Below, in pieces: positions 6,251-31,224 of a stretch of 34,345 bases of DNA. This DNA comes from Stentor roeselii. Its lineage: Eukaryota; Ciliophora; Heterotrichea; Heterotrichida; Stentoridae. Each line of letters begins with the position of its first letter. Position 1 is the stretch's first letter. The stretch spans positions 1 to 34,345 of the forward strand of contig RSEH01000349.1 of assembly GCA_006503475.1 (NCBI GenBank). The letters are read 5' to 3'. Under the pieces are notes generated by a model. It was not told the origin of the DNA and made no database searches. It worked only from the letters and a program-made list of their open reading frames with translations. Made by a program: the position numbers and the translations under genes.

Positions 6251-6870
6251 TATTATATGATTTTAGTTGGATTTGATTTGATTTGGGATTTTTTTAAACG
6301 ATTGGTAATCATTTTTTGAATAATAAGAGAAGAAATTTTTTAGGAAATGAAGAGAGGGTTGAGTTTTAAAAGAAATGTTGGGATAAGAGTCTTCTTTTTT
6401 CTTATGATTTTTTATCATTTGGAAGGTTAGAATTTTTTACTATTTTTTGGTGGTTGATAAGGTTTTTGGATTTAGGGTATTTGATAGGATTATATTTTAA
6501 GGGGTTTTTTTTGGATGGTTTCATCAAAGATTGAATTTTTGACGATTGGTTGATTATACTGGATTCATTTATTTATGGATATGCTTGATTTCGATTTTTA
6601 ACAATATTTTCGCTTTTGAGTTAAACCTGAAATTTTTTGAAAATAAAGACTGTACCAGGCTAAATAAAACTAATAAGACCTTACTTATGATTTTTTTCTA
6701 ATCTCTTAATATAATAGTTATTAACATAAAAATGAATCCACTCAAACGCCAAGTCAGTCCATTATTAACTAAACCCTTCTGAATTAAAAAGCTTGCCAAA
6801 AAAAATCCCTAAACCCCAAAAACCTCTAAAATTTGAAATGAAACCTCAAACCCTTCAACCCTCCAAATAA
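6251..6870. promoter_or_regulatory. Divergent intergenic region between C2H2 and TTLL genes
   Basis: 620 nt separating divergent starts (6250 minus, 6871 plus), so it should hold both promoters. The left two thirds are T/G-rich and the right end A/C-rich on the plus strand. No defined motif, RNA gene or extra frame could be supported. Confidence 0.5.
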
Positions 6871-8277
6871 ATGGAAAACATAACAATAAACCTTCACAGT
6901 ACTTGAAACTCAGACTGTAAATACCCGATTCTCCGTTCAATCGCTCGTTCTTTAAAGTGGTCAATAACCGAATCAGAAGACATAAGTTCAAGTGACCTTA
7001 TCTGGCACGACTGCTCCATTCCTCCAGACCGTCTTTCATCTTTAAAACTCTACCAAAAAGTGAATCATTTCCCAGGCATGTCAGGAATCTTCCGTAAAAA
7101 CTCGATGGCTAACAATTTGAATCGTTTTCGAAAACTTTTCCCGAATGACTTCGACTTTTTCCCTAAAACTTGGGTGTTACCGGGTGAGATGAATTCTTTC
7201 AAACAGGCCTTGAAAACTAGGAAAAAAACTTTTATTGTTAAACCTGAAGCAAGCTCTCAGGGCCAAGGGATTTATTTGGTTAGGCAGGTTAGTGACTTGA
7301 AAGATCTTAATCATTGCATTGCTCAGGAATACCTTGAAAACCCGCTGTTGATTGATAATTTGAAATTTGATTTGAGGATTTATGTATTGGTCACTGGGTG
7401 TGAACCGCTTAGGATTTTTATTCATGAAGAAGGACTTGCTAGGTTTGCTACTAGTGACTATGTCCGTCCAAGCAAAGGAAACATGAAAGACGTCTACGTA
7501 CATCTAACCAACTACTCAATCAACAAAAACAACCCAAACTTCATCCAAGCCTCATCCAATAAAAAGTCGCACAAGCGAAGTTTATCAAGTGTTTTAATAG
7601 TAATCCCCAAATAGCAACTATCAGAGTTAGGCATCAACGTAGAAGAGATCTGGGACAACATCTGCGATATAATCGTTAAAACAATCCTAACAATTCAACC
7701 CGCTTTGGCCTCGACATACCGAACCTGCCAACCTTACGACTATTCAAACAGCATGTGTTTCGAGATTCTCGGCTTCGACGTGATTTTAGACAGTAATTTC
7801 AAGCCTTGGCTTCTAGAAGTAAATCATTCTCCCAGCTTTTCAACTGATTCAGACCTGGACCTTGAAATTAAAACTGCAGTCATTTCAGAAGCACTTGCTT
7901 TGGTCAACTTGAATGAAAAGAAAAAAAAAGAAATTTTAGCTGAAACGAAAAAAATGAATCGGCACAGGTCTCTTAGTAGCAGAAGCATCAAACCGAGTAA
8001 AGAGGAAAAAATGGTGAAAGTTGGAGAGGAGGTCAGGAAAAGGAACTTGTTTGAAGATCAACATTGCAAAGGGTTTATTAAACTTTACCCTGGATCTAAT
8101 GATCATTATTATGATAATTTCTTTAAAACTGCTGAGTGCTTTTATTATAAACTTTCTACACCTAAAAGACCTTCCTCTGGATTTAGGATTCAAGAAGATG
8201 AAGATGCTGACAGGAAAGTAGAAAATTTTAGCCATCTTTCTAATATGCTTGCGAAAAGAAGAGCTGCTTGGAGTTAG
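6871..8277 (+). CDS. TTLL6/13-like tubulin polyglutamylase
   Basis: Tubulin-tyrosine-ligase-like enzyme that would add glutamates to tubulin tails in cilia and cortical microtubules. Two 15-nt introns (6899-6913, 7600-7614) are removed to give 458 residues; the first exon is only 28 nt (MENITINLH). Visible family signatures in order: DLIWHD, YQKVNHFPGM, FPKTWVLP, KPEASSQGQGIYLV (about residue 118), FDLRIYVLV (about 162), VHLTNYSIN, and FEILGFDVILD with LLEVNHSPSFSTD (about 304; Glu and Asn of the ATP/Mg site). The LLEVNHSPSF and CFEILGFD wording is closest to the TTLL6/TTLL13 group. The tail is charged. Without splicing, TGA and TAG interrupt the frame. It sits near an LRRC49-like gene, a subunit of another polyglutamylase complex. 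Confidence 0.9.
6899..6913 (+). other. 15-nt intron ending in CAG (phase 1)
   Basis: GTACTTGAAACTCAG. Removal restores MENITINLHNCKYPILRSIA, joining the first exon to the conserved TTLL N-terminus and avoiding an in-frame TGA. Confidence 0.85.
7600..7614 (+). other. 15-nt intron (phase 0)
   Basis: GTAATCCCCAAATAG. Removal joins SSVLI to QLSELGINVEEIWDNI in the TTLL catalytic domain. It is nearly identical to the intron at 13484-13498. Confidence 0.9.
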
Positions 8278-8596
8278 TGTTAAAAGTAATAGAATTGTTT
8301 TATGGATTTTTTTTAGATTGATGATTTTTTTGGAAGGAGTTTGGAAAACTGGATATTTTCTAACTGATGAAGAATTTAGATAATTTATGTAAAATTTAAG
8401 AAAGTCTTAGTAAAAATCTTACAGAAGCAATAAAATCAAAGATAAACAAAAACTAAACTTATTAATTACTTTAACTTCTATAATTAAAACCTGTTGAAAA
8501 AAAATCCAAATTTTTCCACTAAAATCACCTAATCAACCCTCCTCGCCAAAAAATTCCCAAATTCTCTAAATTTCTGTTCAAATTTCTCTAAAATTA
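8278..8596. promoter_or_regulatory. Intergenic region upstream of MAP3K-like kinase
   Basis: 319 nt between tandem plus-strand genes, holding the end of the TTLL transcript and the kinase promoter. It changes from T/G-rich to A/C-rich near 8400. No gene or defined motif was seen. Confidence 0.5.
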
Positions 8597-9625
8597 ATGG
8601 GATCAGGTTGTTGTAAATCAGACGACGTGCACCCTCTGGACCGTTCAAAAGTGACTCCATTACCAGACCGTGAAAAAGAACTAACAGAGCAAACAGTATA
8701 CGACACTTTAAACATCCAACAAGGTCTAATCCGTTGGCGACGAGGAGATCTAATCGGTCAAGGAATGTTCGGCAGGGTATACCAAGCCTTAAACCTCGAC
8801 ACAGGTGAGCTATTAGCAGTGAAGACCTACAAGTTAAACGCGAACCAGTCCATCGCCCGTTCCGAGTTAATCAACATAAAACGTGAGTTGTTGATTCTCC
8901 GTTCTTTAGACCATCCAAACATCGTGAAGTACTTTCAAGTCGACGTGAGTCAAGAGGACAGTTCAGTCGACATCATCACTGAATACGTTCCCAGCGGGTC
9001 CTTGTTTGCATTGCTGGAAAAATATAAAGGCCTCAGTGAGTCAGTTATCCAGAACTACACGAAACAACTTCTAGAAGGACTTTCTTATTTACATGAAAAT
9101 GAAGTCGTTCATAGAGATCTGAAGTCGGCGAATATCTTGGTTACTGAAAATTCGACTTTGAAACTTACTGACTTTGGATGTAGTCGACGATTTGACTCGG
9201 ACTCAAATGGACAAAGCAGGAGTTTTAAAGGAAGTCCTTATTGGATGTCACCGGAAATGGTATTGAAACTTGGACATAGCTATCCTTCTGATATATGGTC
9301 TCTTGGGTGTCTTATTATTGAAATGGCAACTGGAAGACCACCTTGGTCGAATTACTCGAAGTACTCGAAAGATGTGCTTAAACTTATTGCGGAACCTGGA
9401 AATCTTCCGGATATTCCGAAGATTAGCACGGTTTTAAAGGAATTTTTGTTACTTTGTCTTACTCGTGAACCTCATAAAAGACCTAGTGCTAGGGATTTGT
9501 TGTGTCATGAATTTATTACTTCTAGTACTGTTAACAAGTGCTATGATAGTGTTAGGACTAGTGCTAATGTTTTTAGTGTTAGAGAGTCTGTCGCTGTGAA
9601 GGAAGAACAGAAGAAAGCTCTTTAA
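8597..9625 (+). CDS. MAP3K-like Ser/Thr kinase with N-terminal lipidation signal
   Basis: 342 residues with a complete kinase domain: glycine loop GQGMFGRV (residues 54-61), AVK lysine 76, HRDLKSAN (Asp174), DFG (192-194), SPYWMSPEM and DIWSLGC. Wording such as HRDLKSANILV, FKGSPYWMSPE and RPPW points to the STE11/MAP3K (NPK1-like) group. The N-terminus MGSGCCKS has Gly2 for N-myristoylation followed by Cys5 and Cys6, a typical dual myristoyl/palmitoyl membrane anchor. The kinase is therefore probably bound to the plasma or a vesicle membrane (inference). It has a short C-terminal tail and no separate regulatory domain. It ends 17 nt from the end of the convergent gene. Confidence 0.93.
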   Translation: MGSGCCKSDDVHPLDRSKVTPLPDREKELTEQTVYDTLNIQQGLIRWRRGDLIGQGMFGRVYQALNLDTGELLAVKTYKLNANQSIARSELINIKRELLILRSLDHPNIVKYFQVDVSQEDSSVDIITEYVPSGSLFALLEKYKGLSESVIQNYTKQLLEGLSYLHENEVVHRDLKSANILVTENSTLKLTDFGCSRRFDSDSNGQSRSFKGSPYWMSPEMVLKLGHSYPSDIWSLGCLIIEMATGRPPWSNYSKYSKDVLKLIAEPGNLPDIPKISTVLKEFLLLCLTREPHKRPSARDLLCHEFITSSTVNKCYDSVRTSANVFSVRESVAVKEEQKKAL

Positions 9626-9642
9626 TTTAATTTATACAAAGT

Positions 9643-12600
9643 TTAGAGAGACTGCATCCTAAAAGATGAAGAAGCCTTCAGCCTCAAATAAACCCTTTCA
9701 TCAAAATCATCAGCATCAAACTTAATCTCTTTACTCTTTAAATGTTCTTTCAATCCCCGATTGAAAATAAGTTGATTCGATGTGAATTGCGGACTAAAAT
9801 TAAATTTTTCACGTCTTCTCCTCAGTTTCTTCCCAACAATAGTCGCTTTCTTAAGTCTCTGCCTATACATCTGCTCATCAGTCAAATTATCCTGAGGCAG
9901 AACCTTCAAAGTAAAATGTTCAAAATTCTCTCCTTCATTTTCTGTCTCTTTTATTCCAAGAAACTCTTGTTTTCTTGAAAATCGATTCAAATTTTCAAAG
10001 TCAATCTCAAATTTCCCCTCTTCCAATTCTCGAAAATCAAAAAACATCTGATTTTGCTTTAACAAGCCTAAATTTACTCCAGGTCCAAAGGCGAAAGTCT
10101 TAGGAACAGTATTGAGTTTTAAAGCGAGTTCTTTGATTTCATCATCTAAATTAAAACTTTCCATCTCTTTTTCAAGTTCACTGAAGTCTACAACTTCATA
10201 ATGTGGGTCTTCTTCTGAGTCTTTATGATGAAGAATTTGTTTTGCTATCATCAAAGTGATCTCTTGATGAGAGAGTTCATAAAGTAATGTTTTTTTTGAA
10301 GGATCTTCGAGAATAGGCAGGTCCAAAGAAGATTCACTGCTGCTGAAATCTGAGGATTTATCGTTTTGGTCTGTTGTGATTGAAGTACTCATTTTTTGCT
10401 TTGATGGTTTTGGAGTGTTTTTACCTGAGTGCATTTCTTTCAAAGCAATTTCGCGAGGATAATAAGTTTGCAGATGATTTTGAGTCCTTATAGGTTTAGG
10501 AGGAATGTAATGTTTTGTTAAAGTTTTTTTCAATTCCTGAGGATTTTTATTAGTTTTAAGCTTGTTTTTGATAAGAAGGTCTTTTTCAGCTTGCTCTAGA
10601 CGAAATCGTTTTGCAGTAGGGTTATTAGAGATTCTTTTAATACCGACAAGATTCTGGACTTTTACGAGATTTTTAATTGATTTCAAGATAGAAAATGAAA
10701 AATTGTAAATAAAATTATTGACCGGGTCAAGTTTTCTTATATATTTTTTTACTTCACCAGAAACATAATTTTTCATATATTTCATCCCGATGCTTGACTT
10801 AAGAAGATTTTGCCTTGAAAGACTTTCACTTTTTTTCATAAATCTTTGTTCAAGTTCGATTTTCTTAATAACAGAGTAATTCGAAAAACTAGAAGTTGCA
10901 CTTTCAGAGCTTTCATCAGAACCTTCTCCGTCATTTTTCATTTTCTTCTGTTTTTTACTAGAGTCTTCATTTTTCGACTCTCTTTTTCTAGATCTACGCT
11001 TTTGAGACTTAAGGTCTGGAAAAAGACCTTCACGTCGAGACCCTTCCCTTGAGGAAAGTCTTGAGTCTTCTTTTGTAGGTTTTTTTACTTTAAGAAAACT
11101 GTGACTGCTTAAGTTGCTTTTGTTTGAATCACTGGGTTCATCTTGAAATAAGCCTGATTTTAACAGGTCAGGACTTTGAAGAGTTTCTTTGACAAGGTCT
11201 GCAACTTCAGTCACTTTTATTGACATTTTTAAACTTTCGTCTGAGGAACTTTCAGGATTTTTTCCTGGGTTTTTTGTTGATTTTTTTGTGGGAAAACGCT
11301 TTTTTTGGGAAGGGTTTAATGTTGGTCTGGCCTTCGATGGGCTTAAGCTTGTTTTTAGCTGTTTTGAACTGTTTGAGACACTTGAATTGTCTAGTTTTAT
11401 CGGAACTTCTGAATTTCCAGCGTCTTCTAAGCTGGCTCGAGAGAACTCTGAAGGTTTTTTTGAGATTTCTGTTCGAGATATTTCGTTTTTTCTTTTGGAA
11501 GAGTCTTGTCTGGAGTTTTTTGAGTTTTTTGAGGTTTTTAAGGTTTTTTCTGAGGTTTTGTGTTTTTTTAGTGATTTTTGATTGGCTTCGAGTTTTGAGG
11601 AAGATTTTAAGAGTGAAGCGTTTGAGACTTTTTTTCCACCTCGGGTTGGACTTGATAGGTCTGGAGTTTTTATCACTGGGGAATGAGCTGTGGTGGTTGA
11701 AGGGTTGGTGACGGGTGTGATCGTGTTTTCATTTATTTTCCTTCTTGAAAGTACCGGCGAAAATGCTGCTGATCTTTCAGAACCTTCAAAATCACTTTTT
11801 TCTTCATTTTCTTCTTTTTGATCAAGCCTTACCTCTCTTTCTTCATTATTTTTTAATTTATCAGCGTTTTTTTTACTTTCAGAACTCACAGATCGGTCTC
11901 TTCCTGCCCTAAACTTAAATTTTTCATTTATTTCACCTTCTTCATCAGAACTTGAAGAACCACTCAAGTCTTCGTCGGTATTTTCAAGACTTTCAAGTTT
12001 CATAACATTTCTTTTTACCTGACTTCCAATATTCAACTGTTCATAAAGCTCATTATCAGGATTTTCTAGATACTCTTCAGAGATCCTCGAATTTGAAACG
12101 TTTTTTAAATGGGACTTTTGACTTTCTTTTTTATTACCTGCCCTGGACCTTCCAGATCTTGATGAATTTCTTTCAAAAACTTCAGAATTCAAGAAATTTT
12201 GAGGATTTTCAAGAAAATTTGAAGAAAGATGTTGATTTTGAATGAAATTTTTCATACTTTTTGTATCGTTCAATGGATTTAGTTGATTATTTTCATGGTT
12301 TTGGTAAATTTCTTGAGAGTTAATGCGGATTTGACTTGATTCTTCTTGAAAATAACGACTTTTTCTGAAACCTTTCTGACTTTTAACGATTTTTTCACGT
12401 TGGCTTCTTGAATTTCTACTTTTTGATAGTCTTGCTTTTGAGCCTTTTGCGAGAAGTTGATTTGAAGAACTGGGTTTTTTTGTTTCGTTTTTTTTTTGAT
12501 CAAAACTTTGACTGTCATTCAAGTCTTCCAGTAAAGGCTGGTTCGGAGATTTAAGACGTGATTTACTTGAAAGGACTGGCAAAACTTCGAAGTTTTCTTT

Positions 12601-13128
12601 TACTTGGAAGGATGGGTCAAGTGATGTTGTTATTTTTGAAGGAATCATCGCTTGTCGAGGGGATTCTTGTGATGGTGACTTGATGCTTCGATGTGAGAAT
12701 AAAGGGTTTAAATGATTTGATTCATTGTCTGAGTCTCCGTCTTGAGGGACTAATAGAGAGATACTTACTTTTTCTTTCTTTTTGGATTTTGATTCGTAGA
12801 TTGTGTTCGTGGTTTGGTCTTTGTTGCCCAGATGTTTGGTTTTATGAGTCACCAGTCTCGGCAAGATCTTTGATGACTTCGATTCAAATATAAAGTTTTG
12901 ATGCTCATCAGTTGCATAAAGCGGTGGGGAGTTGAACTCTCTCTTACTACTAACCTTAAAAGGTTTAGTAGAAGTGATTTTAATCAAGCTGGGTGATTGA
13001 GAGCCAAAGTATCTCCATCCAGGTAATTCCTTAATTCTTGACTTGGGAAATCGATTTCTAAGAGGAACAAGATTCGAAGTTTTCTTCGACACCAGATCAG
13101 GCGAAAGTTCTTTTTTGCTTTTTATCAT
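9643..13128 (-). CDS. Large low-complexity Ser/Lys-rich protein, unknown function
   Basis: One uninterrupted frame of 1161 residues. The first ~850 residues are rich in Ser, Lys, Asn, Glu and Arg, with many short Lys-Ser and Ser-rich runs and acidic patches, so likely disordered. A more ordered part lies at about residues 950-1161, with HQEITLMIAKQILHHKD, then KTFAFGPGVNLGLLKQNQMF and EQMYRQRLKKATIVGKKLRR. No known domain is recognised. Basic, Ser-rich proteins of this kind are common cytoskeletal scaffolds in ciliates, but that is a guess. It shares a 122-nt divergent promoter region with the second DHHC gene. Confidence 0.85.
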   Translation of the reverse strand: MIKSKKELSPDLVSKKTSNLVPLRNRFPKSRIKELPGWRYFGSQSPSLIKITSTKPFKVSSKREFNSPPLYATDEHQNFIFESKSSKILPRLVTHKTKHLGNKDQTTNTIYESKSKKKEKVSISLLVPQDGDSDNESNHLNPLFSHRSIKSPSQESPRQAMIPSKITTSLDPSFQVKENFEVLPVLSSKSRLKSPNQPLLEDLNDSQSFDQKKNETKKPSSSNQLLAKGSKARLSKSRNSRSQREKIVKSQKGFRKSRYFQEESSQIRINSQEIYQNHENNQLNPLNDTKSMKNFIQNQHLSSNFLENPQNFLNSEVFERNSSRSGRSRAGNKKESQKSHLKNVSNSRISEEYLENPDNELYEQLNIGSQVKRNVMKLESLENTDEDLSGSSSSDEEGEINEKFKFRAGRDRSVSSESKKNADKLKNNEEREVRLDQKEENEEKSDFEGSERSAAFSPVLSRRKINENTITPVTNPSTTTAHSPVIKTPDLSSPTRGGKKVSNASLLKSSSKLEANQKSLKKHKTSEKTLKTSKNSKNSRQDSSKRKNEISRTEISKKPSEFSRASLEDAGNSEVPIKLDNSSVSNSSKQLKTSLSPSKARPTLNPSQKKRFPTKKSTKNPGKNPESSSDESLKMSIKVTEVADLVKETLQSPDLLKSGLFQDEPSDSNKSNLSSHSFLKVKKPTKEDSRLSSREGSRREGLFPDLKSQKRRSRKRESKNEDSSKKQKKMKNDGEGSDESSESATSSFSNYSVIKKIELEQRFMKKSESLSRQNLLKSSIGMKYMKNYVSGEVKKYIRKLDPVNNFIYNFSFSILKSIKNLVKVQNLVGIKRISNNPTAKRFRLEQAEKDLLIKNKLKTNKNPQELKKTLTKHYIPPKPIRTQNHLQTYYPREIALKEMHSGKNTPKPSKQKMSTSITTDQNDKSSDFSSSESSLDLPILEDPSKKTLLYELSHQEITLMIAKQILHHKDSEEDPHYEVVDFSELEKEMESFNLDDEIKELALKLNTVPKTFAFGPGVNLGLLKQNQMFFDFRELEEGKFEIDFENLNRFSRKQEFLGIKETENEGENFEHFTLKVLPQDNLTDEQMYRQRLKKATIVGKKLRRRREKFNFSPQFTSNQLIFNRGLKEHLKSKEIKFDADDFDERVYLRLKASSSFRMQSL

Positions 13129-13250
13129 AATTAAAGTATTTTAAAATCTTTACTCTTAAAAAAACAACTTTTTCGATTATCAAACAAAATTTCAAGTCTT
13201 TTCTCTACTCAAGCCACTCAATGAATTTAAAGGATTTTACAATATAAGAA
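13129..13250. promoter_or_regulatory. Divergent promoter region, 122 nt
   Basis: Only 122 nt separate the start of the minus-strand 1161-residue gene from the plus-strand DHHC gene, so both promoters must lie here or overlap coding DNA. AT-rich; no specific motif is claimed. Confidence 0.5.
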
Positions 13251-14111
13251 ATGATGAAAAAGAATGGATTCACAAGTCCCCTTCATCCTTATCAGATCCT
13301 CACTTGGATTGTTTTCGCTTTTCATTCAATTTCTCCAGGTTTGCTGATATTCCCAAATCTTGACAGTGAAAAAGGGATGATTTTCCTAGTAATATACTAC
13401 ATTTCTCATGCAAGTGTTTTGATAACTGGATTTTTATGCACATTGTCAAATCCAACTATTCAGAAATCGAGAGAACCACTTTAGTAACACCCAAATAGTT
13501 TAGAAACATCTGAAAATATCAATTTTTACTGCACTATCTGCGAGTCTTATGTGAGTAGGACGGCCAAGCACTGTGGAAGTTGTGATCGATGTGTGCATGG
13601 CTTTGATCATCACTGTAAATGGCTGAATAACTGTATTGGGCAGGTTAACTATAAACAGTTCATTGGCCTTTTGATTTCAGTTTTTTTAAATGAACTTGTT
13701 TTGTTTTGTTTCGAAATTAAGGTGCTTTTGATTCGGGGAATTGGGAAGAGTGTTAAGGGATTGGTGCTGTTTGATTGTGTATTGAATTCTATGATTTTGG
13801 CTGCTTTGGTTTATTTGATTGGGATTCATATTATGCTCAGGTTTAAAGGCATGACTACTTATGAGTATATTAAGGCTGCGAGGAAGGAGAAAGAAAAAAG
13901 GATTAACCCACTTCCAATAACACCTAAAACCGAAGAAAACAAAGTCCTAACCACTGAAATCGATGTAAAAAAGTCAATAATAAAATCCGAATCCAAACCA
14001 AACAACAAAACCGTAGAAGAAAACCCATTTTCCTTCTCAGTTCCAAAAGCCTCTCTAGAAGAAATGGTTCACCTAACAATGCAACTTCACTACGAAAGTG
14101 AAACTGAATAA
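13251..14111 (+). CDS. DHHC protein S-acyltransferase, four-span type
   Basis: 281 residues after removal of the 15-nt intron 13484-13498; unspliced, the frame meets TAG TAA. Two N-terminal membrane spans, then a cysteine-rich domain with CTICESYVSRTAKHCGSC and CVHGFDHHCKWLNNCIG (catalytic DHHC at residues 114-117). Two further spans and the canonical TTxE motif (MTTYEYIK) follow, then a charged tail rich in Lys, Pro and Ser. This is a standard palmitoyltransferase, without ankyrin repeats, so not a close copy of the enzyme at 2112-3581. The last ~200 nt switch abruptly to A/C-rich codons. The stop is 12 nt from the stop of the convergent membrane-protein gene. Confidence 0.92.
13484..13498 (+). 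other. 15-nt intron (phase 2)
   Basis: GTAACACCCAAATAG. Removal joins SREPLY to LETSENINFYCTIC and restores the first zinc-binding cysteines of the DHHC domain. Confidence 0.9.
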
Positions 14112-14123
14112 TTAAATAATACA

Positions 14124-14951
14124 CTAATCAAAACTTTCAATTTCATAAGCTTTGTGTCTATCAATACTAGAAAGTTCAATATTCGTCTGCATGGGTTCTT
14201 CTGGGTCGAATCTTTTCGACCATAAAATAGCAGTCCTTGTAAGAACCCTGATATTTTCACTTATAAGTACTTCTAAAAGCATGGAATACCCGAAGGCCGC
14301 CATCCAATGATCTACAAGTCTTGTGAAGTCAGTGTCGGTATCGTCATGGACCTTGTAAGTAAAAACAAAGACGAAAATCGTGCATATTCCAAACATGAGT
14401 CCTACAAAAACGTATCCGAAGACCTTTCTCCATAAAAAACCTTCGTCTTTTTCACGGATTCTTAGTAAAAAGTAACCGATTAGGTAGAATAAGGATGTTA
14501 TTATCATTGATACGAAACCGTATACAAAGTCACGACTTTTAAAGGTGTTTGGGTCTTCGTAGTCTTGGTCGTAGAGAATTCCTGTTATTAACATGTCTGT
14601 GAAGACGATTAGGAGGATTAAAGACCATCGGGATGTTGAGGTGAACCGCCATTCCGTCTTTGAAACTAACCAGCCTGATAGAAGGTACTCTTCGACTAGA
14701 AATCGGCAGATACTTCGACTTTCACCTGTTGGGTAACGATCTGAGGTGTCAGTCCTCGCAATATTCGGAATAATATCACGAATGATGCTAATAATCAATC
14801 CTAAAGCAAACGTCACAGTAAGGCTAATCCAGATCCATATCATACTAAATTCTCCTAAAACAGTGCGAGTATCTTTCCCTTTACACGATGAGTCAGGGTC
14901 AATAGGATAGTTACAAGCAAGAGCCCCAATGATCAAGACACTAAAAAACAT
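14124..14951 (-). CDS. Five-span membrane protein with signal-like N-terminus
   Basis: 275 residues. A hydrophobic leader (MFFSVLIIGALAC) is followed by a short lumenal stretch and about five membrane spans near residues 35-62, 105-125, 145-170, 180-205 and 215-245, then a hydrophilic tail. The segment LVEEYLLSGWLVSKTEWRF then STSRWSLILLIVFTD faintly recalls the first membrane block after the PLAT domain in polycystin-1-type proteins, but this is weak and no channel or PLAT domain is present. The function is unknown. It begins only 35 nt after the stop of the dynein-tail gene on the same strand, so its promoter must be very short or the two may be co-transcribed. Confidence 0.75.
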   Translation of the reverse strand: MFFSVLIIGALACNYPIDPDSSCKGKDTRTVLGEFSMIWIWISLTVTFALGLIISIIRDIIPNIARTDTSDRYPTGESRSICRFLVEEYLLSGWLVSKTEWRFTSTSRWSLILLIVFTDMLITGILYDQDYEDPNTFKSRDFVYGFVSMIITSLFYLIGYFLLRIREKDEGFLWRKVFGYVFVGLMFGICTIFVFVFTYKVHDDTDTDFTRLVDHWMAAFGYSMLLEVLISENIRVLTRTAILWSKRFDPEEPMQTNIELSSIDRHKAYEIESFD

Positions 14952-20685: not shown

Positions 20686-20693
20686 GATTATAA

Positions 20694-22863: not shown

Positions 22864-23118
22864 TGGAATAATAGAAAGTTGAATTAATTACTGAGATTTA
22901 TTAATTTTGGGAGGTATTGATGGAAAATAGATTTTAAATGATGATATGCAATCATTTTCTTTTAAAATATGAATAAGGACAAAACTTTGAATTGTTTGAA
23001 ATTTATTGAAAATTAAGTTTATCCTTCATTACACTATGAAGTAACGAGTTTAAATTAATCAATAATGATATCATTTAAATCGATCAAGAAACAGTGATAT
23101 CATTCAACCATTTTAATA
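22864..23118. other. Intergenic region, 255 nt
   Basis: AT-rich spacer between tandem plus-strand genes. ATCGATCAAG-like and ATGATATCATTTAAAT palindromic patches occur near 23060-23105 (GATATCAT appears twice, at about 23067 and 23096). No gene is visible. Confidence 0.4.
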
Positions 23119-23730
23119 ATGCTATTTTTCTTATTACTCTCAACAACTCACTCAAAGCTTTGCAGCGATCTTCAAAGAAGCGACTTTTCCGAGTCACTAA
23201 CAACCTGCATCAACACCCTAGACAAGTCATCATGTACCGAGGCAATAAAAGACCTAGACGAGAAGTTCTCATCCTGCATAAAATCCGCTCCAGTTTTAAC
23301 ATTCAGACAAAAGCTTTACGATTTCAACACTGGCTTCTTCTACGGTCTTCAAGTCGATCCTACGAGTCCATCAGAGTGTGTCGTATCTTTAATCCAGCTG
23401 AAAAAAAGATGGGAAATAGTCTTCAATGGCCTAACAATGCCAAAATTCTCAACTCCAGTGATGTTTCTATTCAACTTCAACAGTTTTATCTCAGAACTTG
23501 ATTCATTCTACGGTTTATGCACCCTTTCCACGATTTACGACATTTTCCATCCAGAGACCTTTCCTTTATTCCTCAATTCAATTCTAATAAAGTGGCTTGC
23601 TGAAAAAGACAAAGTGAAAGCAACAATAAAAGCAATCAACAAGAGTCTTAATTCCTCTGATTTCGTATCAGCAGGGGTCAACAGTGGAAAACTTTTCACT
23701 TATTTGACTGGATACAAAATTGATAGCTAG
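23119..23730 (+). CDS. Secreted cysteine-containing protein, ciliate family, copy 1
   Basis: 203 residues with a short signal peptide (MLFFLLLSTTHS). The body holds eight or so Cys, a GFFYGLQVDPTSPSECV segment, a later LDSFYGLCTLSTIYDIF segment and a C-terminal SGKLFTYLTGYKI. A protein with the same layout is encoded at 25224-25685, so they appear to be diverged members of one secreted family. No enzyme motif is seen; function unknown. TAG stop lies 26 nt from the stop of the convergent TPR-like gene. Confidence 0.75.
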   Translation: MLFFLLLSTTHSKLCSDLQRSDFSESLTTCINTLDKSSCTEAIKDLDEKFSSCIKSAPVLTFRQKLYDFNTGFFYGLQVDPTSPSECVVSLIQLKKRWEIVFNGLTMPKFSTPVMFLFNFNSFISELDSFYGLCTLSTIYDIFHPETFPLFLNSILIKWLAEKDKVKATIKAINKSLNSSDFVSAGVNSGKLFTYLTGYKIDS

Positions 23731-23756
23731 TTCTTAAATCATTATTTATACCAAAA

Positions 23757-24968
23757 TCAATCATCTTCTGAATGCACCCCGTAAAGGTCATTCGAATTAA
23801 TGACAAAAGTCGTGTTTTCCTCTTCTTCGTAGTCTTGACTTAAAGGAGGCTCTGGCTCTTGGTTGTCTTCTCTTTGCGTTTTGAACTTGCCGGAGAAATC
23901 ATTATTTTTCTCGACTTTCTCGAGTTTTTCACGAAAATAACTCCTTTCTGTCTTCACTTCTAAGTCTTTTATTATCTTTCGTTGTCCTGCCTTTGGACGG
24001 ATCGGAGTCTTGTTCTTGGATGAAGCTTGACGAGACTCTTTTATTGGAGTTTTGGATTTACTGATTTTTGAAACTTTTTGGATTACTACTGGAGGGTAGT
24101 GCTTGTCGAATGATGACTTTATGTGCTGGAAAAGAGGAGTCTCGAATGGCATCAGGACTGAACCGATCTCAACGGCTCGGCTGTGCCAGGCTTTGGCTTT
24201 TTTTACCTCTTGTTGATCGTCTAGAAGTCTTGATTCTGTTGCAATCAGATAACAAGACGTAAGCAAAAGACAAATTTTCTCCAACATAAAATCTTTTGAT
24301 ACCTCAGCTTGAAACGTATGAGAATTTTTCACTTCAAAGTATTTCAAAGGCTTAATATCAAGAATATCGTTAATAGTGAAAGAGTAAATCCAATCGGTGA
24401 AGTGAATGACTCCAAGTGAAGACCTCTGTATAATCTTATTAGAATTCAAAGGAAACCTAGAGATCTTGCCCGATAGAAAAAGAAGACAAGACTCTAAAGT
24501 TTTATAATTTTGAAAATTATAATCAGGAAGATTTTTCATATTCGAAGCAGCAGAAACACAAAATTGATACGACTGAGAAACATAATTAAAAGCCTGTTTC
24601 GCTGAAAATACTGCAGCTTCATGATTCCCAAGATGTGACAAGATGGCTCCTTGTTGTATATAAAGCATGCAGATATATCTAGTATTCCTTATCTTCTCTA
24701 TATCTTGAGTTATTTCTCGAGATTTCGCTATTTTTATCGTTTTATCTAAATATTTGCAGCATTCTTCGAAGTCTTGGATTATTTGATAGCACATGGAAAG
24801 GTTATGATAAACGATCAGTCTCATGTCAAAGTCGCAGTCTTTGCTCAGGTCAAGACGATCTTCACAAAGACGCAGGATGTTCATTCCTTCATCGATCTCT
24901 GAAGACTCGATCAACTCGACGGCTCTTTCAATTCTTTCTAAAAGCTTTTTCTCTTTTTGCACTTCCAT
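23757..24968 (-). CDS. TPR-like helical protein with basic, disordered tail
   Basis: 403 residues ending at TGA, one of the clear uses of TGA as stop here. The N-terminal half is helical with TPR-like pairs (MRLIVYHNLSMCYQIIQDFEECCKYL cut here as two repeats; LYIQQGAILSHLGNHEAAVF). From about residue 295 it is basic and Ser/Lys-rich (KISKSKTPIKESRQASSKNK), then acidic at the end (DYEEEENTTF). This suggests an adaptor or scaffold; no ortholog is recognised. Confidence 0.8.
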   Translation of the reverse strand: MEVQKEKKLLERIERAVELIESSEIDEGMNILRLCEDRLDLSKDCDFDMRLIVYHNLSMCYQIIQDFEECCKYLDKTIKIAKSREITQDIEKIRNTRYICMLYIQQGAILSHLGNHEAAVFSAKQAFNYVSQSYQFCVSAASNMKNLPDYNFQNYKTLESCLLFLSGKISRFPLNSNKIIQRSSLGVIHFTDWIYSFTINDILDIKPLKYFEVKNSHTFQAEVSKDFMLEKICLLLTSCYLIATESRLLDDQQEVKKAKAWHSRAVEIGSVLMPFETPLFQHIKSSFDKHYPPVVIQKVSKISKSKTPIKESRQASSKNKTPIRPKAGQRKIIKDLEVKTERSYFREKLEKVEKNNDFSGKFKTQREDNQEPEPPLSQDYEEEENTTFVINSNDLYGVHSEDD

Positions 24969-25223: not shown

Positions 25224-25685
25224 ATGTTAGTTTTTATTCTACTTTCTCTAGTCTCAGGGCAAAGCAACTATGAATACCTTCGAGACTACATCGAAGGCTT
25301 CATGAAAGGTTACGAAGACCCAACATACACCTTCCCCTCTTCATCCTGCCTTTCACCTCGAGTACAAACATCGATAAACGACAAGATAATCGGACTCTTC
25401 TTCTTCGCCTCAAACGAGAACTGGGCCCAAGTAAACCTAATAAAATCCCAGCTACAAACAGTGATAAAAAACGCTTTAAAGTCCTGTGATCTCGACGATT
25501 TTTACCTAAGTACTCAAGAGTCCTACTCTTTTTCCACCTGGTTAAGGCGCCTGTGGTGGAATTCAGTCCTCATCTTCCGAAACTGCAGCAAATTTCAACA
25601 ACTTTTATTATCTAACAGAACTGGCGCCTTTTACCATCTGGGGACTTGTATGAAGTTTATCTTTCCTAAAGTCATAGTTGATTAA
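25224..25685 (+). CDS. Secreted cysteine-containing protein, ciliate family, copy 2
   Basis: 153 residues from the first ATG at 25224. A signal peptide (MLVFILLSLVSGQ) precedes YIEGFMKGYEDPTYTFPSSS with a following Cys, an ALKSCDLDDFYLS segment and a C-terminal GAFYHLGTCMKF. The layout parallels the 203-residue protein at 23119: a Phe/Gly-rich DP segment before the first conserved Cys, a middle Cys, and a small Gly-aromatic motif at the end. It is shorter. Function unknown. Its TAA stop is only 2 nt from the stop of the convergent minus-strand gene. Confidence 0.7.
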   Translation: MLVFILLSLVSGQSNYEYLRDYIEGFMKGYEDPTYTFPSSSCLSPRVQTSINDKIIGLFFFASNENWAQVNLIKSQLQTVIKNALKSCDLDDFYLSTQESYSFSTWLRRLWWNSVLIFRNCSKFQQLLLSNRTGAFYHLGTCMKFIFPKVIVD

Positions 25686-25687
25686 AA

Positions 25688-27694
25688 TTAATTCTTAGAT
25701 GAAAGACTTGGAGATCTTCCTAAAAAAGAAGGGCGTGAACTTGCTTTGCTTTTAATTGATTTCGGGCTTGAAGACCTTTCTACTTCGATGTTGGTGTAAA
25801 TGTCGAGGAACTCTTTGATTGAAGTAGAACCGCCTTTGACTTTAACGATAAGTTTTGAGTTTTCAAGTTTTATATGAACTTTAGTTGACCCGAATAAATA
25901 GTTACCGTTTTCTTGTCTGGTGAATTTTATTGGGACTTTATTGGAATTCACGTAGTCTGCCAAGGCCACATCGACTGGGTCGGATTTTAAAGGAATATGA
26001 AGAACTTGCTGTTTTTTTACTTGGCCCATTGTGCCTTTTAATGAGTCTAGTTTTTCTTCTTGTTGATCTGCGGAGTCCATCATCGCGTCCATTTTAACGG
26101 CTTCGTTGAAAATCACCTCGCTTTGACTGCTTAATAGGCATGAACCGCGGTCTAAGTCGGGAAGGGTTGCTGGCCTGCTCTGGAGATACAAATGCTTCAG
26201 CTTCGAAATATCAAGCGCAAGACTCGTGAGATCCGAGGAGCTCTTTTGTAAGGTTGACAAGCGAATCAATTCAAGATTCGCTTCAATATTCAAAATTAAT
26301 TCGCGATTTATAACAGTTCTTTCAGAGCTAATCTCAGATGACAAAGAAAGACCTTGCAGTACTTGTGAAGTCTTACTAGACAAATTAATTTTCCCTTCTT
26401 TTGACTTTTCTAAACTTGATTGATAAGCTTCAGGAAGCCAAATCTTAATCGAATTGTTAAAATCATCATGACTTATTCCAAGACTTCCACGATTCGAAAA
26501 GGAATTTTTAATTGAAAAGTGATGAGACTCGTTTTTCTGAATAGCTTCATGAAGCTCGTTGATTTTTTGCTTGAGTTTTGAATTTGATGCTTTAGTTTCT
26601 TCGAATTCTTGAGAAGTGAGTTTAAGGCGGTGCTTTAATTCAGAGATTTCAGTTTGAAAAGTGATGAGCTCGGATTTGCTTTGGTCTTTTGATGAGGATA
26701 AAAGGGAAAAGTGGCTTGTTTTTTGGGAATCGAGATGGGATTGATGGGCATGGCTCTTTGAGATTAAGGAATTGTAAAGAGATTGTTCTTTCCAGTCTCG
26801 ATGTTCTTGATCCAAAAGGTCTTTTTGTTTTTTTAAATCGATTAGGGATTTCGTCTTTTGTTGAAGGGTTTCTTTTAAGGAGTCTCGCTTTTTTAGAAGG
26901 GCTTGATATCGGGAAGTCGCTTCTTGGAAGGATTTGGATATCGTGGTTAACTCGTCTTTTGCCTCGAGTTGCAGTTGTCTTCGGTGAGATGATTTGGAAT
27001 CGAAGGTTTCTTTGAAATCTATGAGTTTTTTGGATAGAGACTCGAGAGATTTCACCTCTTGACATAAGCTTCTCACCACACTTTTCAACTGCTCCCCATT
27101 CATATTCTTCAATTCATCAAATCCCAAATTCTCCAAATTAACCTCTTCATGCTCACCACCGCCATTACCTTGAAAAGACAAACAAATAGCTCTTTCCTTA
27201 CAAACATTCCTGGCCCTCCAAATTTCATTTAAAGGTTCAGAAGACCTTCCACATCCCTCAACAACATTAACAAGATAAGGACATTCTTCATTCTTTTCCT
27301 TTTTTTCCTTTTTTTCCTTCAAAACTTTAACACTTTTACTTTTTTCTTTCACAATAGTCTCACAAAATACGAGATTTCCAGAAACTTTCACTCGAAAATT
27401 TTGGAAGTCTTCCGTCTTTACCTTCAGCCACTTCTCCGCCTTGAGGACAGTCCTTGCATTAAAGAATGACTCAACGAGAAGTCGAGCATTTCCCAAAAGT
27501 TTTTCACCGTTAAAAGCAGAGATGATGAAAAAATTGCTGCCGTTTAGTTCAAAGGGCTCTGTTGTCACTGGGCTTTTCAGGAGGACTGAAAGTTTTAAGC
27601 TGTTTGACTCGATGATGAAGGAAGGGATGATTTTTCCGCAGCCGGAGACTTCTTTGAGCTCGATTCGAAGTTTTGCTGATTTAACAGATTCCAT
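25688..27694 (-). CDS. C2-like / coiled-coil protein
   Basis: 668 residues. Residues 1 to about 120 look like a C2-type beta sandwich (AKLRIELKEVSG, NFFIISAFNGEKLLGNARLL). A long coiled coil follows at about 190-420 (KKLIDFKETFDSK, SLIDLKKQKDLLDQEHRD). Near residues 570-640 a compact domain reads ALADYVNSNKVPIKFTR, NYLFGSTKVHIKLE, KLIVKVKGGSTSIKEFLDIY, which loosely resembles Gas2-related (GAR) microtubule-binding domains. The last residues are Ser/Lys-rich. A cytoskeletal or basal-body role is plausible but inferred. Confidence 0.8.
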   Translation of the reverse strand: MESVKSAKLRIELKEVSGCGKIIPSFIIESNSLKLSVLLKSPVTTEPFELNGSNFFIISAFNGEKLLGNARLLVESFFNARTVLKAEKWLKVKTEDFQNFRVKVSGNLVFCETIVKEKSKSVKVLKEKKEKKEKNEECPYLVNVVEGCGRSSEPLNEIWRARNVCKERAICLSFQGNGGGEHEEVNLENLGFDELKNMNGEQLKSVVRSLCQEVKSLESLSKKLIDFKETFDSKSSHRRQLQLEAKDELTTISKSFQEATSRYQALLKKRDSLKETLQQKTKSLIDLKKQKDLLDQEHRDWKEQSLYNSLISKSHAHQSHLDSQKTSHFSLLSSSKDQSKSELITFQTEISELKHRLKLTSQEFEETKASNSKLKQKINELHEAIQKNESHHFSIKNSFSNRGSLGISHDDFNNSIKIWLPEAYQSSLEKSKEGKINLSSKTSQVLQGLSLSSEISSERTVINRELILNIEANLELIRLSTLQKSSSDLTSLALDISKLKHLYLQSRPATLPDLDRGSCLLSSQSEVIFNEAVKMDAMMDSADQQEEKLDSLKGTMGQVKKQQVLHIPLKSDPVDVALADYVNSNKVPIKFTRQENGNYLFGSTKVHIKLENSKLIVKVKGGSTSIKEFLDIYTNIEVERSSSPKSIKSKASSRPSFLGRSPSLSSKN

Positions 27695-27811
27695 GATTAT
27701 AAGATGGCTGGATTTGAATTGGGATTCGAGGTTTCAGGGAATTGAAGAGTTGAGGTTAATGAGTTGGGCATTGAGGGAAAAGGAATTTTTTATGAAGTTG
27801 AAGAGTTGATG

Positions 27812-28628: not shown

Positions 28629-30068
28629 TTAATTAACTTTTAAATAAACTAAAGAATTCTGTAGGAATATTCCTAGTAGGAAGCTGAAAAGACATGAAAG
28701 AAAAACTTCGAATGATAGGGACCAAGTTATTTTCCTTTCAGCTTCATTGATCAGAAACTCACGTTTTTCTATAATTTTTCTCGTTTCCGACTGAATCATT
28801 TTGATTTTCATGCTCAAATCTCTGTTTTTCCTGTAAAGCTCTTCTTCAGTTTTTAAATAATTTCCTTGAAGTAGTTCTTTAATTCCGTTATTATTTTTGA
28901 AGAGGTTTTTCGTTTTAATGATTTTTTTGTTGTGAATTGAGTTCAAATGATAAAGTTCCTGACTTTTCTGCCTAATTTTCTCTAAAATTTTTTCCCTTTG
29001 TTTTGAAGATTTTTCAAATTCTTTAACTTGATCAAAGTTATTCGGAGATTTTGAAAAATATTGAAGAGTATTTTCAATGATTTCTTCTTTTTTTAAATTA
29101 AGCTGAACATCTTCAATTTCTTTGATTTTTTTTATCTGTAATTGAAATTTTTCTCTTTTCATTGAAAAAAACTTAAAGAGATTCAGGTTTTCTTGAAAAA
29201 TCTTCTCTTTTATCTCAAGTTCCATTAAAAATACCTGCTTTTCTTTCTCAGGCTTAACAAATCTTTTCTGTGAATCTAAAAGTTTGATTAAAAAAAAACT
29301 AACCCAAACTGAAATTTTAAAAATTTTGATTTTTTTTCCTTTTTTCAGATTTTGCGAGGCTGATAAAAAGTCTGAGTAAAAATTCATCAAAACCATGACT
29401 TTATCAAAATAATTTCTGACTTGATTCACTTTTTTCTCAATGAAAGTTGAAATTTCATTGAAAATTTCAGAATCGTTTTTCGAGCTTTCAAGTTTTTTTT
29501 GTATTTCATAAGAGGAAAAGTTGATATTTTCATTAGGGTTAAAGACTAGAAATGAAAGAGAGATGTAGTCTCTGAGTCTTTCTTTTGACAAATAGTTTTT
29601 GATCAGTGAGTGCTTTGACCAAATGAAGCCGATTAATTTGTTGTAAGGGTAGTCGTCTGGATACTGCTCCAAGTAATAAGAAATCGTGTTGTTCAGCTCT
29701 TCTTGGGTCACTTTAGGGATTTTTGACTGAGATATTATGTACATCAGCTGATGTTTTGGAAGTAGTCTTTGTAGGTCTTTAATTGAAACTGAAGGACTCT
29801 CGAGAAAATCTAGAATCAGAGAAGTTAGTAATGATGCAGGAAGTGACTTACTTGAAGGGTCTACACGTTCGAGGGTTTTCTTCACAAATGCTAAAAAGAT
29901 TGGATTTTCTGAAAGTTCTTGTTTGGAGTTTTTTGAAGGACAGTCAATTTTCTTATCTTCAAGTAAAACAAAAAGTTCCTCAAAAGCCTGAGGGTTCAAG
30001 TCAATAATCTCAAAACTATCCAAAGACTCATCCAAAGCTTTCCTTTGACTAAAAGTTAAAAAATCCAT
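28629..30068 (-). CDS. Tail-anchored coiled-coil protein
   Basis: 479 residues. The N-terminal third is helical and globular-looking. Residues about 200-450 are predicted coiled coil (KEKQVFLMELEIKEKIF, REKILEKIRQKSQELYHL). A single hydrophobic segment near the C-terminus (FEVFLSCLFSFLLGIFL) followed by only about ten residues marks a tail-anchored membrane protein with its bulk in the cytosol. Near the start, DESLDSFEIIDL has an acidic stretch before F-E-I-I, a pattern compatible with an Atg8-interacting (LIR) motif; this is weak. No family recognised. Confidence 0.78.
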   Translation of the reverse strand: MDFLTFSQRKALDESLDSFEIIDLNPQAFEELFVLLEDKKIDCPSKNSKQELSENPIFLAFVKKTLERVDPSSKSLPASLLTSLILDFLESPSVSIKDLQRLLPKHQLMYIISQSKIPKVTQEELNNTISYYLEQYPDDYPYNKLIGFIWSKHSLIKNYLSKERLRDYISLSFLVFNPNENINFSSYEIQKKLESSKNDSEIFNEISTFIEKKVNQVRNYFDKVMVLMNFYSDFLSASQNLKKGKKIKIFKISVWVSFFLIKLLDSQKRFVKPEKEKQVFLMELEIKEKIFQENLNLFKFFSMKREKFQLQIKKIKEIEDVQLNLKKEEIIENTLQYFSKSPNNFDQVKEFEKSSKQREKILEKIRQKSQELYHLNSIHNKKIIKTKNLFKNNNGIKELLQGNYLKTEEELYRKNRDLSMKIKMIQSETRKIIEKREFLINEAERKITWSLSFEVFLSCLFSFLLGIFLQNSLVYLKVN

Positions 30069-30112
30069 TATTTCACAAACCTACCAAACTTCACATGAAA
30101 TTTAATATTTAA
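30069..30112. promoter_or_regulatory. 44-nt divergent spacer
   Basis: Only 44 nt separate the start of the tail-anchored protein gene (minus) from the CK1-like gene (plus), so the two must share a minimal bidirectional promoter or use elements inside coding DNA. Confidence 0.55.
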
Positions 30113-30940
30113 ATGACGGAACTTTGCATATGTGGCCAGTACCAGCTTGAAAATCCTTTACAACAAGGTTCATTTTCTGAGATATTTTTGGCATCCCATA
30201 AAGAAAATAAGACCCGCTACGCAGTAAAAGTAGAAAAACTCTCATCAACCCACCTTCTCCAACAAGAATGTCGAGTACTGAGGATCTTGGAAGGATTTCC
30301 AGGTATTCCAAAAGTCTTCAATATCAGCAAAGACAGAGTAAACACTTACATGGTAATGGAATTACTGGGTGCTTCACTTTTAGACAAGTTTCACTCTCAC
30401 GGGGCTTTCTCTTTAAACCTATTATCTAAAACCGCTGCAAGTCTTCTCGAATCATTCAAATCAATTCACCAGGCCGGTTATATTCATCGAGACATAAAAC
30501 CTGAAAACTTCTTATTCGGACTAGAAGAAAATAGCAGTCAATTGTTCGTAATCGACTTCGGACTCAGTCGGAGGTTTTTAAAGGGAGATACACACAAAAC
30601 TCTCAAATTCGGTAAAAAACTTGTTGGCACTGCAAGGTTCGTCTCGATTAACACCCATCAAGGATTAGCTCAGTCTCGAAGGGATGACTTGGAAGCGCTT
30701 GGTTATTTGTTTGCTTTTCTTGGAAAGGGAAGACTTCCTTGGATGCATATTAGGTCTGCTAGCTCTAGTTTACAGTTTCAGGGAATTTTAGAAAGTAAGA
30801 GATGTCATAGTGCAAAATTCATTTGTGATGGACTTCCTGAAGTTTTTGAAGAGTTTTTAGAGTATTCTAGGAATTTGGGGTTTGAGCAAGCTCCGGATTA
30901 TGATAGGTTTATTGGAAAGTTTTTGGAGATGGTTGAGTAG
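30113..30940 (+). CDS. Casein kinase 1-like Ser/Thr kinase
   Basis: 275 residues, essentially a bare kinase domain. CK1 hallmarks: YAVKVE (Lys39), IHRDIKPENFL (Asp127), DFG (148-150), and GTARFVSINTH then QSRRDDLEALGYLF (residues 172-200), the CK1 replacement of the APE motif. The nucleotide loop reads LQQGSFSEI instead of the usual IGSGSFGEI, so two of three glycines are missing, but Lys39, Asp127 and Asp148 are kept and activity is plausible. No C-terminal regulatory tail. TAG stop, with no intron solution to extend it. Confidence 0.92.
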   Translation: MTELCICGQYQLENPLQQGSFSEIFLASHKENKTRYAVKVEKLSSTHLLQQECRVLRILEGFPGIPKVFNISKDRVNTYMVMELLGASLLDKFHSHGAFSLNLLSKTAASLLESFKSIHQAGYIHRDIKPENFLFGLEENSSQLFVIDFGLSRRFLKGDTHKTLKFGKKLVGTARFVSINTHQGLAQSRRDDLEALGYLFAFLGKGRLPWMHIRSASSSLQFQGILESKRCHSAKFICDGLPEVFEEFLEYSRNLGFEQAPDYDRFIGKFLEMVE

Positions 30941-31224
30941 TTAATGTTTATTTTAGAGAGTTTTGAGTGGATTTATGAGGTTTTTTTGGAGGATTAGGAT
31001 TTTTTTTTGGTTTTGGTATTTATTTAGAAGTATGTTTATGTGATCAAAGAGCTCTTGTGTTGTTTTTAATTATTGGTTTATTTAAGTAGTCTTTAGTGAT
31101 TAAAGGATCTTTACATTGTTTTTATTATCATTTTATTAAAGTATTCTTTATCTGACGAAGGAGGCCATCTAAATTCCTTCAAAAACCCATCTATATAAAA
31201 CAATTTAAATTTTATTGAATAATT

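Follow-up and report, generated by a model that had tools for sequence, protein, structure and literature searches.

In kataegis and in the damage-induced mutation clusters of yeast, mutations are strand-coordinated and the mutated strand switches at the break. Such clusters are single somatic events, whereas the sawtooth of base composition that we describe here is heritable and genome-wide. At human PRDM9 hotspots, as we read the account, cytosine and adenine are mutated on the strand exposed to the left of the break, with the complementary pattern to the right, and the effect reaches a kilobase or two, a sign and a scale like those of the present genome. The hotspot asymmetry, however, consists in differing rates of rare variants at scattered sites, and the parts of the report that describe it give no asymmetry in the central ±100 bp (PMC7615360), whereas the steps in the ciliate genome are sharper and equilibrium composition is reshaped everywhere sampled, at about one site per 1–1.5 kb. 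Replication skew domains of human and yeast, as portrayed in sections of PMC3459929 and PMC9645720, likewise combine an abrupt skew change with a gradual return; compared with these, the unit here is ∼1 kb long and the third-position keto (G/T) fraction, hereafter K3, swings from roughly.2 to.8. Among ciliates, the sections of two reports that treat nanochromosomes of Nyctotherus (PMC2633312) and Halteria (PMC7858049) describe, as in the present genome, a strand-symmetric bias relative to DNA ends, limited in both cases to the chromosome ends: a purine skew over ∼70–130 nt in Nyctotherus (PMC2633312), and a subtelomeric skew in Halteria for which deamination of exposed strands has been proposed (PMC7858049). 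Unlike these, the resets that we observe are internal to contigs, keto/amino in kind, and associated with a bias about a kilobase long. Taken as a model of DNA ends, telomeric ends of this genome (n = 8) show only a weak amino excess over the first ∼200 bp, with a keto fraction of.43–.46 in the first 150 bp and ∼.50 by 200–300 bp, values that telomere remnants confound. A search of the literature other than preprints returned no earlier description of a kilobase keto/amino sawtooth.

The window is a stretch of 34,345 nucleotides (positions 1 to 34,345 of contig RSEH01000349.1) from the macronuclear genome of the heterotrich ciliate Stentor roeselii, which has CCCTAACA telomeres, 15-nt introns, and the standard genetic code. 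TGA is a stop codon in this genome: 49,349 codons contain 12 in-frame TGA against 441 TGG, seven of the 12 lying within 12 codons of the frame end, three within 12 of the start, and two in the interior, and TGA terminates 7 of 67 long frames. We analyzed the window together with 24 other loci of the same genome (274 kb in all), these being contig starts (C1–C20, C60, C120, C180, and C240) rather than random places. A reset is defined as a point at which the plus strand is keto-rich to the left and amino-rich to the right; fitting all 25 loci gave 179 resets, some of which score zero or below once refined, with a median domain of 1.03 kb and a mean of 1.32 kb.

The kilobase sawtooth of synonymous strand bias is confirmed. 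The original prediction described it from seven 60-nt base counts, all exact on recount, and from nine resets called by eye, for which the nearest fitted resets are 7467, 9646, 13889, 20336, 21182, 24241, 27035, 29935, and 31154, at distances (in that order) of 13, 6, 11, 1, 58, 1, 30, 145, and 11 bp. Eight of the nine calls thus fall within 60 bp of a fitted reset, with a median of 11 bp against 308 bp for random points. The codon-preserving shuffles proposed as a control bore the prediction out as well: across 30 synonymous-codon shuffles, scored by the variance of K3 between 40-codon bins within genes, the K3 variation along genes was not reproduced, either in the window (11 open frames; 0.0287 versus 0.0061±0.0007, z = 35) or in the 24 other loci (61 frames; 0.0191 versus 0.0065±0.0003, z = 50), and 50 kb of E. 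coli (21 frames) gave 0.0063 versus 0.0062±0.0005 (z = 0.2). Furthermore, resets called on T/C only recur in the G/A channel, and intergenic DNA carries the sawtooth as well. K3 autocorrelation in the window drops to −0.53 at a lag of 480 bp and stands at +0.24 at 960 bp, whereas the other loci reach −0.29 at 480 bp without a clear return. A nearly regular spacing of about 1 kb holds for the window, where simulated spacing indicates near-regular teeth of ∼1–1.1 kb, but the other loci do not fit it.

The predicted shape, a slow keto rise closed by a sharp keto-to-amino drop, was recovered in a third-moment sign-flip test on all bases with 150-bp arms (89 of 137 two-kb blocks positive, z = 4.3; 78 of 120, z = 3.8, when the window is left out). 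Excluding the window, the same test was weaker at third positions only (50 of 109 blocks positive, z = 2.0, p = 0.016), where 300-bp arms gave no significant result (p = 0.38), and noncoding DNA alone yielded 43 positive blocks of 58 (z = 4.25). A forward sawtooth fit better than a reversed one in 17 of 25 loci in-sample and in 14 of 25 on held-out data (Wilcoxon p = 0.09), with a clear summed gain; for noncoding DNA only, a linear fit favored the reversed sawtooth and an exponential model the forward one. In-sample fitting favored exponential decay between resets (1011 versus 553), and on held-out data the gain was 535 for a linear course and 514 for an exponential one, the latter being better in 10 of 25 loci (p = 0.52). 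Because the linear course is as good on held-out data, a decay set by absolute distance can be called possible rather than shown. Besides the in-sample fit, the plateau in long domains speaks for it: across 36 of them (>1.7 kb), K3 levels off near.49 at ∼700–800 bp from either reset. On average, resets are steeper than a 100-bp ramp would be, with a first-25-bp ratio of.54 as compared with.63 for a simulated step and.29 for the simulated ramp.

In agreement with the resets originally noted within genes on either strand, open frames contain 16 of the window's 26 fitted resets, the one at 9646 exactly at a frame's edge, and hence gene boundaries do not account for all resets. An intergenic reset at 6622..6623 (fit score 24.1, sd 16 bp) is followed by one visible by eye at 7467..7468, inside the plus-strand frame 6907–7611 (score 11.4, sd 6 bp). 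The tooth at 8411..9646 runs from an intergenic reset through a gene identified as a kinase by Pfam (8597–9625, plus strand) to a reset at the gene junction, K3 passing through.40,.30,.40,.54,.60,.72, and.82 before falling to.28. Two resets lie inside the minus-strand frame 9646–13140, at 11747..11748 (score 14.7, sd 13 bp) and 12843..12844 (score 11.6, sd 9 bp). A sharp reset at 13889..13890, inside the plus-strand frame 13488–14108 (score 27.6, sd 6 bp), begins a tooth (13889..14749; K3.22,.40,.50,.70,.74) that continues unbroken over the convergent gene boundary 14108/14127 to a weaker reset at 14749 (score 6.8). Further resets are situated at 17616..17617, inside the minus-strand frame 14990–18157 (dynein heavy chain N-terminal region by Pfam; score 16.5, sd 5 bp), and at 18939..18940 (score 13.9, sd 18 bp) and 20336..20337 (score 16.8, sd 13 bp), both inside the minus-strand frame 18265–20715 (TPR protein by Pfam). 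The tooth at 22963..24241 (K3.28,.38,.34,.40,.45,.64,.60,.52) crosses the convergent boundary 23727/23760 and ends inside the minus-strand frame 23760–24968 at reset 24241 (sd 3.7 bp), and that at 25249..26183 (K3.36,.26,.44,.60,.68,.68,.50) crosses the convergent boundary 25682/25691 between resets that are weak in the refined fit (scores 1.5 and −3.5). The minus-strand frames 25691–27733 and 28632–30080 contain resets at 27035..27036 (score 19.7, sd 13 bp) and 29935..29936 (score 11.9, sd 11 bp; called by eye at 30080), respectively. The strongest reset of the window, at 31154..31155 (score 34.0, sd 13 bp), lies between convergent genes, and an intergenic reset at 32424..32425 (score 11.3, sd 19 bp) falls outside the interval originally described.

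Transcription direction does not explain the domains, as had been argued: mean coding-strand K3 over 72 open frames is 0.510±0.005, which amounts to almost no gene-oriented strand bias. The broader claim that the domains are independent of gene direction stands insofar as they lie in genes on both strands, but the argument behind it fails, since a rising sawtooth is unchanged by reverse complementation; direction independence is then automatic and leaves room for a gene-linked cause. Gene boundaries also hold resets, at 2–3 times the mean density 100–200 bp upstream of ATG and 0–300 bp after stop codons, and 61% of all 179 resets lie in open frames, which cover 74%. Comparison of five paralog pairs revealed positively correlated K3 profiles in four (0.46 to 0.90) and unrelated profiles in one, indicating that turnover is not general. 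The unrelated pair is a tandem one at locus L012 whose members are 59% identical over 688 residues; its K3 correlation is −0.08, and differences between codons for the same amino acid run 14:2, 13:1, and 9:1 one way and 0:10 and 3:8 the other way along the gene. The window also contains a pair of zinc-finger paralogs (5837–6250 and 33356–33778), in which the aligned stretch is too short for reset comparison.

We favor, at a probability of about 45%, a model in which the sawtooth stems from 5′ resection at recurrent breaks in the germline or at DNA ends, at roughly one site per 1–1.5 kb. Each reset would be a spot of repeated germline breakage, or a DNA end, at which resection of the 5′-ended strand on both sides bares a 3′ tail of single-stranded DNA, the exposure tapering off within some hundreds of base pairs. 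In this tail, cytosine and adenine would mutate at a raised rate (C to T and A to G, along with some transversions), such that the plus strand, exposed to the left of the break, would turn G/T-rich, and to the right, where the minus strand is exposed, it would turn A/C-rich. Between adjacent sites the outcome would be a gradual climb that ends in an abrupt reset, whichever strand is read and whatever genes are present, and third positions could approach saturation, given that silent changes are tolerated and that the break sites would be long-lasting. The breaks might be meiotic ones of the SPO11 type in open chromatin, or they might arise at sequences that are lost from the macronucleus.

Near resets, the plus strand is poor in C and A on the left and in G and T on the right, in both 4-fold sites and cross-channel profiles; 4-fold sites to the left of resets change from A.38, C.15, G.13, T.34 at 700–800 bp to A.205, C.061, G.212, T.522 at 0–100 bp. 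Among the causes that the original prediction offered, a DNA-processing one provides the best fit by sign, scale, and turnover. The higher reset density upstream of ATG and after stops is as expected of breaks in open chromatin, and the genome encodes, judged by presence only, one SPO11/TopVIA-type (TP6A_N) gene, whose open frame spans 385 aa, together with two Rad51-family recombinases. Several observations speak against the model, among them the heterogeneity of the loci, the held-out fits and shared paralog profiles given above, and steps that are sharper than at human hotspots. GC-biased conversion, which is not required in all lineages, is not visible, as GC at 4-fold sites is flat near resets (.26–.30), and K3 to the left and right of gene boundaries <120 bp apart is uncorrelated (rho = 0.11, p = 0.49, n = 42). 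A search for an APOBEC-type deaminase found none in the genome, but controls gave no match either. No motif at resets emerged from counts of dinucleotides and of 3- to 6-mers or from EM searches at widths of 6, 8, 10, and 14, the EM score of reset sites being below all six displaced control sets at every width; GAC/GTC is in excess at resets (48 versus 24.8 expected, uncorrected for multiple tests).

Chance, amino-acid composition, assembly joins, or inversions could in principle create resets, and one of 45 listed sharp resets (L019:6273) does coincide with the border of an array of tandem 21-nt units, while the refined scores at or below zero also speak for such a reading. Yet the signal disappears in synonymous shuffles (z = 35 and 50) and is absent in E. 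coli, and inversions or misjoins would interrupt frames that in fact pass unbroken through intragenic resets; we therefore give this source almost no credence. A cause at the level of transcription or mRNA, by which the 5′ ends of genes would be rich in A/C and the 3′ ends in G/T through codon choice, RNA structure, or transcription-coupled mutation, with intragenic resets marking cryptic transcription units, draws on the enrichment of resets at gene boundaries, on a coding-strand K3 that increases from.473 at 5′ ends through.497 in mid-gene to.587 at 3′ ends, and on the reverse-complement symmetry that prevents gene direction alone from dismissing it. We nevertheless judge it unlikely, since the near-even mean K3 given above shows no consistent coding-strand keto excess, many resets lie deep within single frames on both strands, K3 rises on through the boundary in 7 of 12 convergent pairs <120 bp apart, against the 3′-end rule, and the sawtooth is present in noncoding DNA alone. 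Moreover, the L012 pair has no common profile despite conserved protein and direction, although the four other pairs share theirs.

Replication would place an origin at each reset, with an A/C-rich leading strand and a drift back where forks meet variably. The leading strand is A/C-rich in S. cerevisiae, K. lactis, and, by analysis, C. albicans, according to passages of PMC3459929 and PMC9645720, which gives the sign seen here. The linear course between resets predicted by this account also equals the exponential one on held-out data. However, it would need an efficient germline origin about every kilobase, whereas eukaryotic origins lie tens of kilobases apart. In addition, K3 is flat mid-domain in the 36 domains >1.7 kb, a flatness that missed resets could produce, and independent patterns in tandem paralogs ∼4 kb apart would demand origin turnover at that scale; we regard an origin at each reset as rather improbable. 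Somewhat more plausible, but still unlikely, is that resets are junctions left by the removal of internal eliminated sequences (IESs), each tooth being one macronucleus-destined segment whose gradient was made in the micronucleus beside the IES by excisase leak, hairpin breakage, or IES-linked replication stress. Parts of a report on the heterotrich relative Blepharisma stoltei give 39,799 IESs on 41 Mb (one per ∼1.03 kb), about 70% of them intragenic where genes cover 77%, and about three quarters TA-bound (PMC9942856). The density matches our median domain of 1.03 kb (mean 1.32), with comparison numbers from a related genus, the resets are mostly intragenic with slight depletion (61% in frames covering 74%), and removal would sharpen resets even if breaks were spread inside the IES. 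Against it, the enrichment of TA at 51 resets does not exceed that of TC+GA (1.74 versus 1.72), a log difference of 0.01 where simulation with 76% TA junctions gives 0.54±0.17 and the null 0.00±0.18; the simulation places the mutational edge no more than 1 bp from the junction and overstates power if the edge is farther away. No match to the PiggyBac-type DDE_Tnp_1_7 domain (PF13843) was found in the genome, although control genomes gave none either, and the organism, with its standard code, is not the Blepharisma from which the IES figures come. Eliminated sequences may also name the break sites rather than oppose the break mechanism.

Under the break-and-resection model, the silent positions of this somatic genome might, as we tentatively suggest, record at base resolution where tens of thousands of recurrent germline breaks lie, perhaps at eliminated-DNA junctions. 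Such sites would have endured until synonymous positions were saturated, ancient paralogs would share them in part, and the finished sequence by itself would suffice to read them. Were silent-site composition governed across a whole genome, at the kilobase scale, by germline breaks or ends, codon choice, protein drift, and molecular clocks would hinge on the distance to the nearest site. Break sites would then be mappable from sequence, offering a handle on ciliate germline cutting or on the placement of meiotic breaks, which is hard to see in this group. Should replication instead be the cause, the origin density would be one not known in eukaryotes. Under either cause, gene-based codon-usage models would miss the main source of variation in this genome.

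Third-position keto content (K3) was taken as the share of third codon positions with G or T, read on the plus strand; it was chosen because it is nearly free of amino-acid effects, third-position T/C and G/A exchanges being almost always silent. Twenty-five loci (274 kb) were sampled: the window, which is contig C286 taken whole (34,345 bp), and 24 ten-kb contig starts, which are not random places, all from an assembly of 44.4 Mb in 522 contigs. Stop-to-stop frames served as gene models, with a minimum length of 100 codons (300 for the shuffle bin-variance and spacing analyses) and introns not handled. TGA was read as sense in most fits and as a stop in the K3 bin profiles, the shuffle bin-variance and spacing analyses, and the reset-position and coding-strand checks.

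Open frames are long, and some are joined by 15-nt introns of the form GTAA...TAG (e.g., at 2433, 7600, and 13484 in the window). TGA is a stop codon: it terminates 7 of the 67 long frames, and in-frame occurrences are very few (12 in 49,349 codons versus 441 TGG). The genome is that of a heterotrich ciliate macronucleus using the standard code, Stentor-like. In Blepharisma, by contrast, UGA means tryptophan according to the excerpted text of PMC9942806; a Blepharisma-type genome was rejected since TGA acts as a stop here. The double unit of the telomere repeat CCCTAACA occurs 271 + 389 times in the genome, against 0 for a reversed control, and lies at contig ends among the matches listed on contigs of known extent. 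Contig C40 (249.8 kb) carries CCCTAACA repeats at both ends and is thus a complete macronuclear chromosome.

Within window genes, K3 climbs gradually and then drops abruptly, as in a kinase gene at 8597–9625, where successive 150-bp bins read.40,.30,.40,.54,.60,.72, and.82, then.28. The original prediction described by eye sawtooth domains of about 1 kb that reset abruptly from G/T-rich to A/C-rich sequence; its 60-nt counts proved exact on recount, and its resets agree with fitted ones to a median error of 11 bp. The codon-preserving shuffle check that it proposed places observed K3 bin variance far above synonymous shuffles (z 35 in the window and 50 at the other loci, versus 0.2 in E. coli). 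A K3 sawtooth fit across the 25 loci scored +340 forward and −35 reversed, while five synonymous shuffles gave −1488 to −1385 and −1430 to −1324, respectively; locus by locus, forward was favoured in 17 of 25.

Circularity was removed by placing resets from one base pair and reading them in the other. Across resets placed from T versus C only (n = 150), third-position G/(A+G) falls from.43 and.39 in the two 100-bp bins to the left to.24 on the right, returning to about.34 by 500–600 bp; across those placed from G versus A (n = 146), T/(T+C) drops from.80 to.60. Rises placed in the same way (n = 142 and 135) appear in the independent channel as gradual slopes (.29.30 |.34.41 and.58.66 |.71.73). 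A sign-flip asymmetry test without the window was significant on all bases and on noncoding sequence and weaker on third positions. Held-out gains were 535 for a forward linear and 514 for a forward exponential (300 bp) tooth, versus 269 and 199 reversed, with forward better in 14 of 25 loci (p 0.09). The sawtooth is therefore real in the summed data, but loci differ, and a sharp reset is not present at every boundary.

The combined fit placed 179 resets, spaced 1.03 kb apart in the median and 1.32 kb on average. Some have refined scores of 0 or below, and 71 exceed 8, including 19 of the 26 in the window. The step at resets is steeper than a ramp of 100 bp would be. Toward a reset from the left, C at 4-fold sites falls from.15 to.06 and A from.38 to.205 as G and T rise, with 4-fold-site GC constant near resets at.26–.30; the pyrimidine share also increases, therefore the changes are not all transitions. 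GAC/GTC shows a roughly twofold excess over flanking sequence at distances up to 15 bp from 51 well-placed resets (48 versus 24.8, z 4.7, uncorrected). At L019:6074–6349, a 21-nt tandem array gives way at a reset to a 30-nt array whose content is similar.

A codon-level comparison of K3 was made in five paralog pairs. A tandem pair at L012 (59% identity) is uncorrelated (−0.08): one stretch holds runs of same-amino-acid codons shifted toward keto, and another holds runs shifted toward amino. Positive correlations were seen in the remaining four pairs, at.79 (77% identity),.90 (67%),.54 (38%), and.46 (34%). Near L010:4459 and L028:3003, K3 drops abruptly at the same homologous codon of proteins 34% identical, perhaps an ancient common site. 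Taken together, the four correlated pairs, the uncorrelated pair, and this shared drop indicate, in a small sample, that sites can persist for long periods and that new ones can arise or existing ones vanish. Elsewhere, L023:2–5777 is an inverted duplication with frames 77% identical over 603 residues and near-identity in its first blocks that resembles the result of a recent conversion, and the window holds two related minus-strand C2H2 zinc-finger genes (5837–6250 and 33356–33778).

Transcription as the cause is disfavoured, because mean coding-strand K3 is 0.510 ± 0.005 and the signal is present in noncoding DNA. In the window, teeth cross convergent gene boundaries. Of 12 close convergent pairs (boundaries less than 120 bp apart), 7 show a K3 rise from one side to the other; over all 42 close gene pairs, no K3 correlation was found between the two sides. 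Resets fall in open frames in 61% of cases, such frames covering 74% of sequence; density per 100 bp reaches.18 at 100–200 bp upstream of ATG and.13–.185 in the first 300 bp downstream of stops, whereas the mean is.065 and values inside genes near their ends are.03–.065. IES junctions match the resets in spacing and gene distribution but not in TA content. Replication origins are a less likely cause, though one that the gradient shape allows; yeast-like origins share the resets' skew sign in the excerpted text of PMC3459929.

Our main proposal is recurrent germline breaks or ends with 5′ resection. At a reset, both 3′-ending strands are G/T-rich. One gene of SPO11/TopVIA type and two for recombinases of the Rad51 family are present in the genome, each with an open frame (assembly G000, C316:14907–15089, C91:179837–180562, and C119:76711–77436). 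Because base mutation rates in ciliate germline nuclei are reported to be very low, a break-linked process could outweigh other sources of change at silent sites despite being rare.
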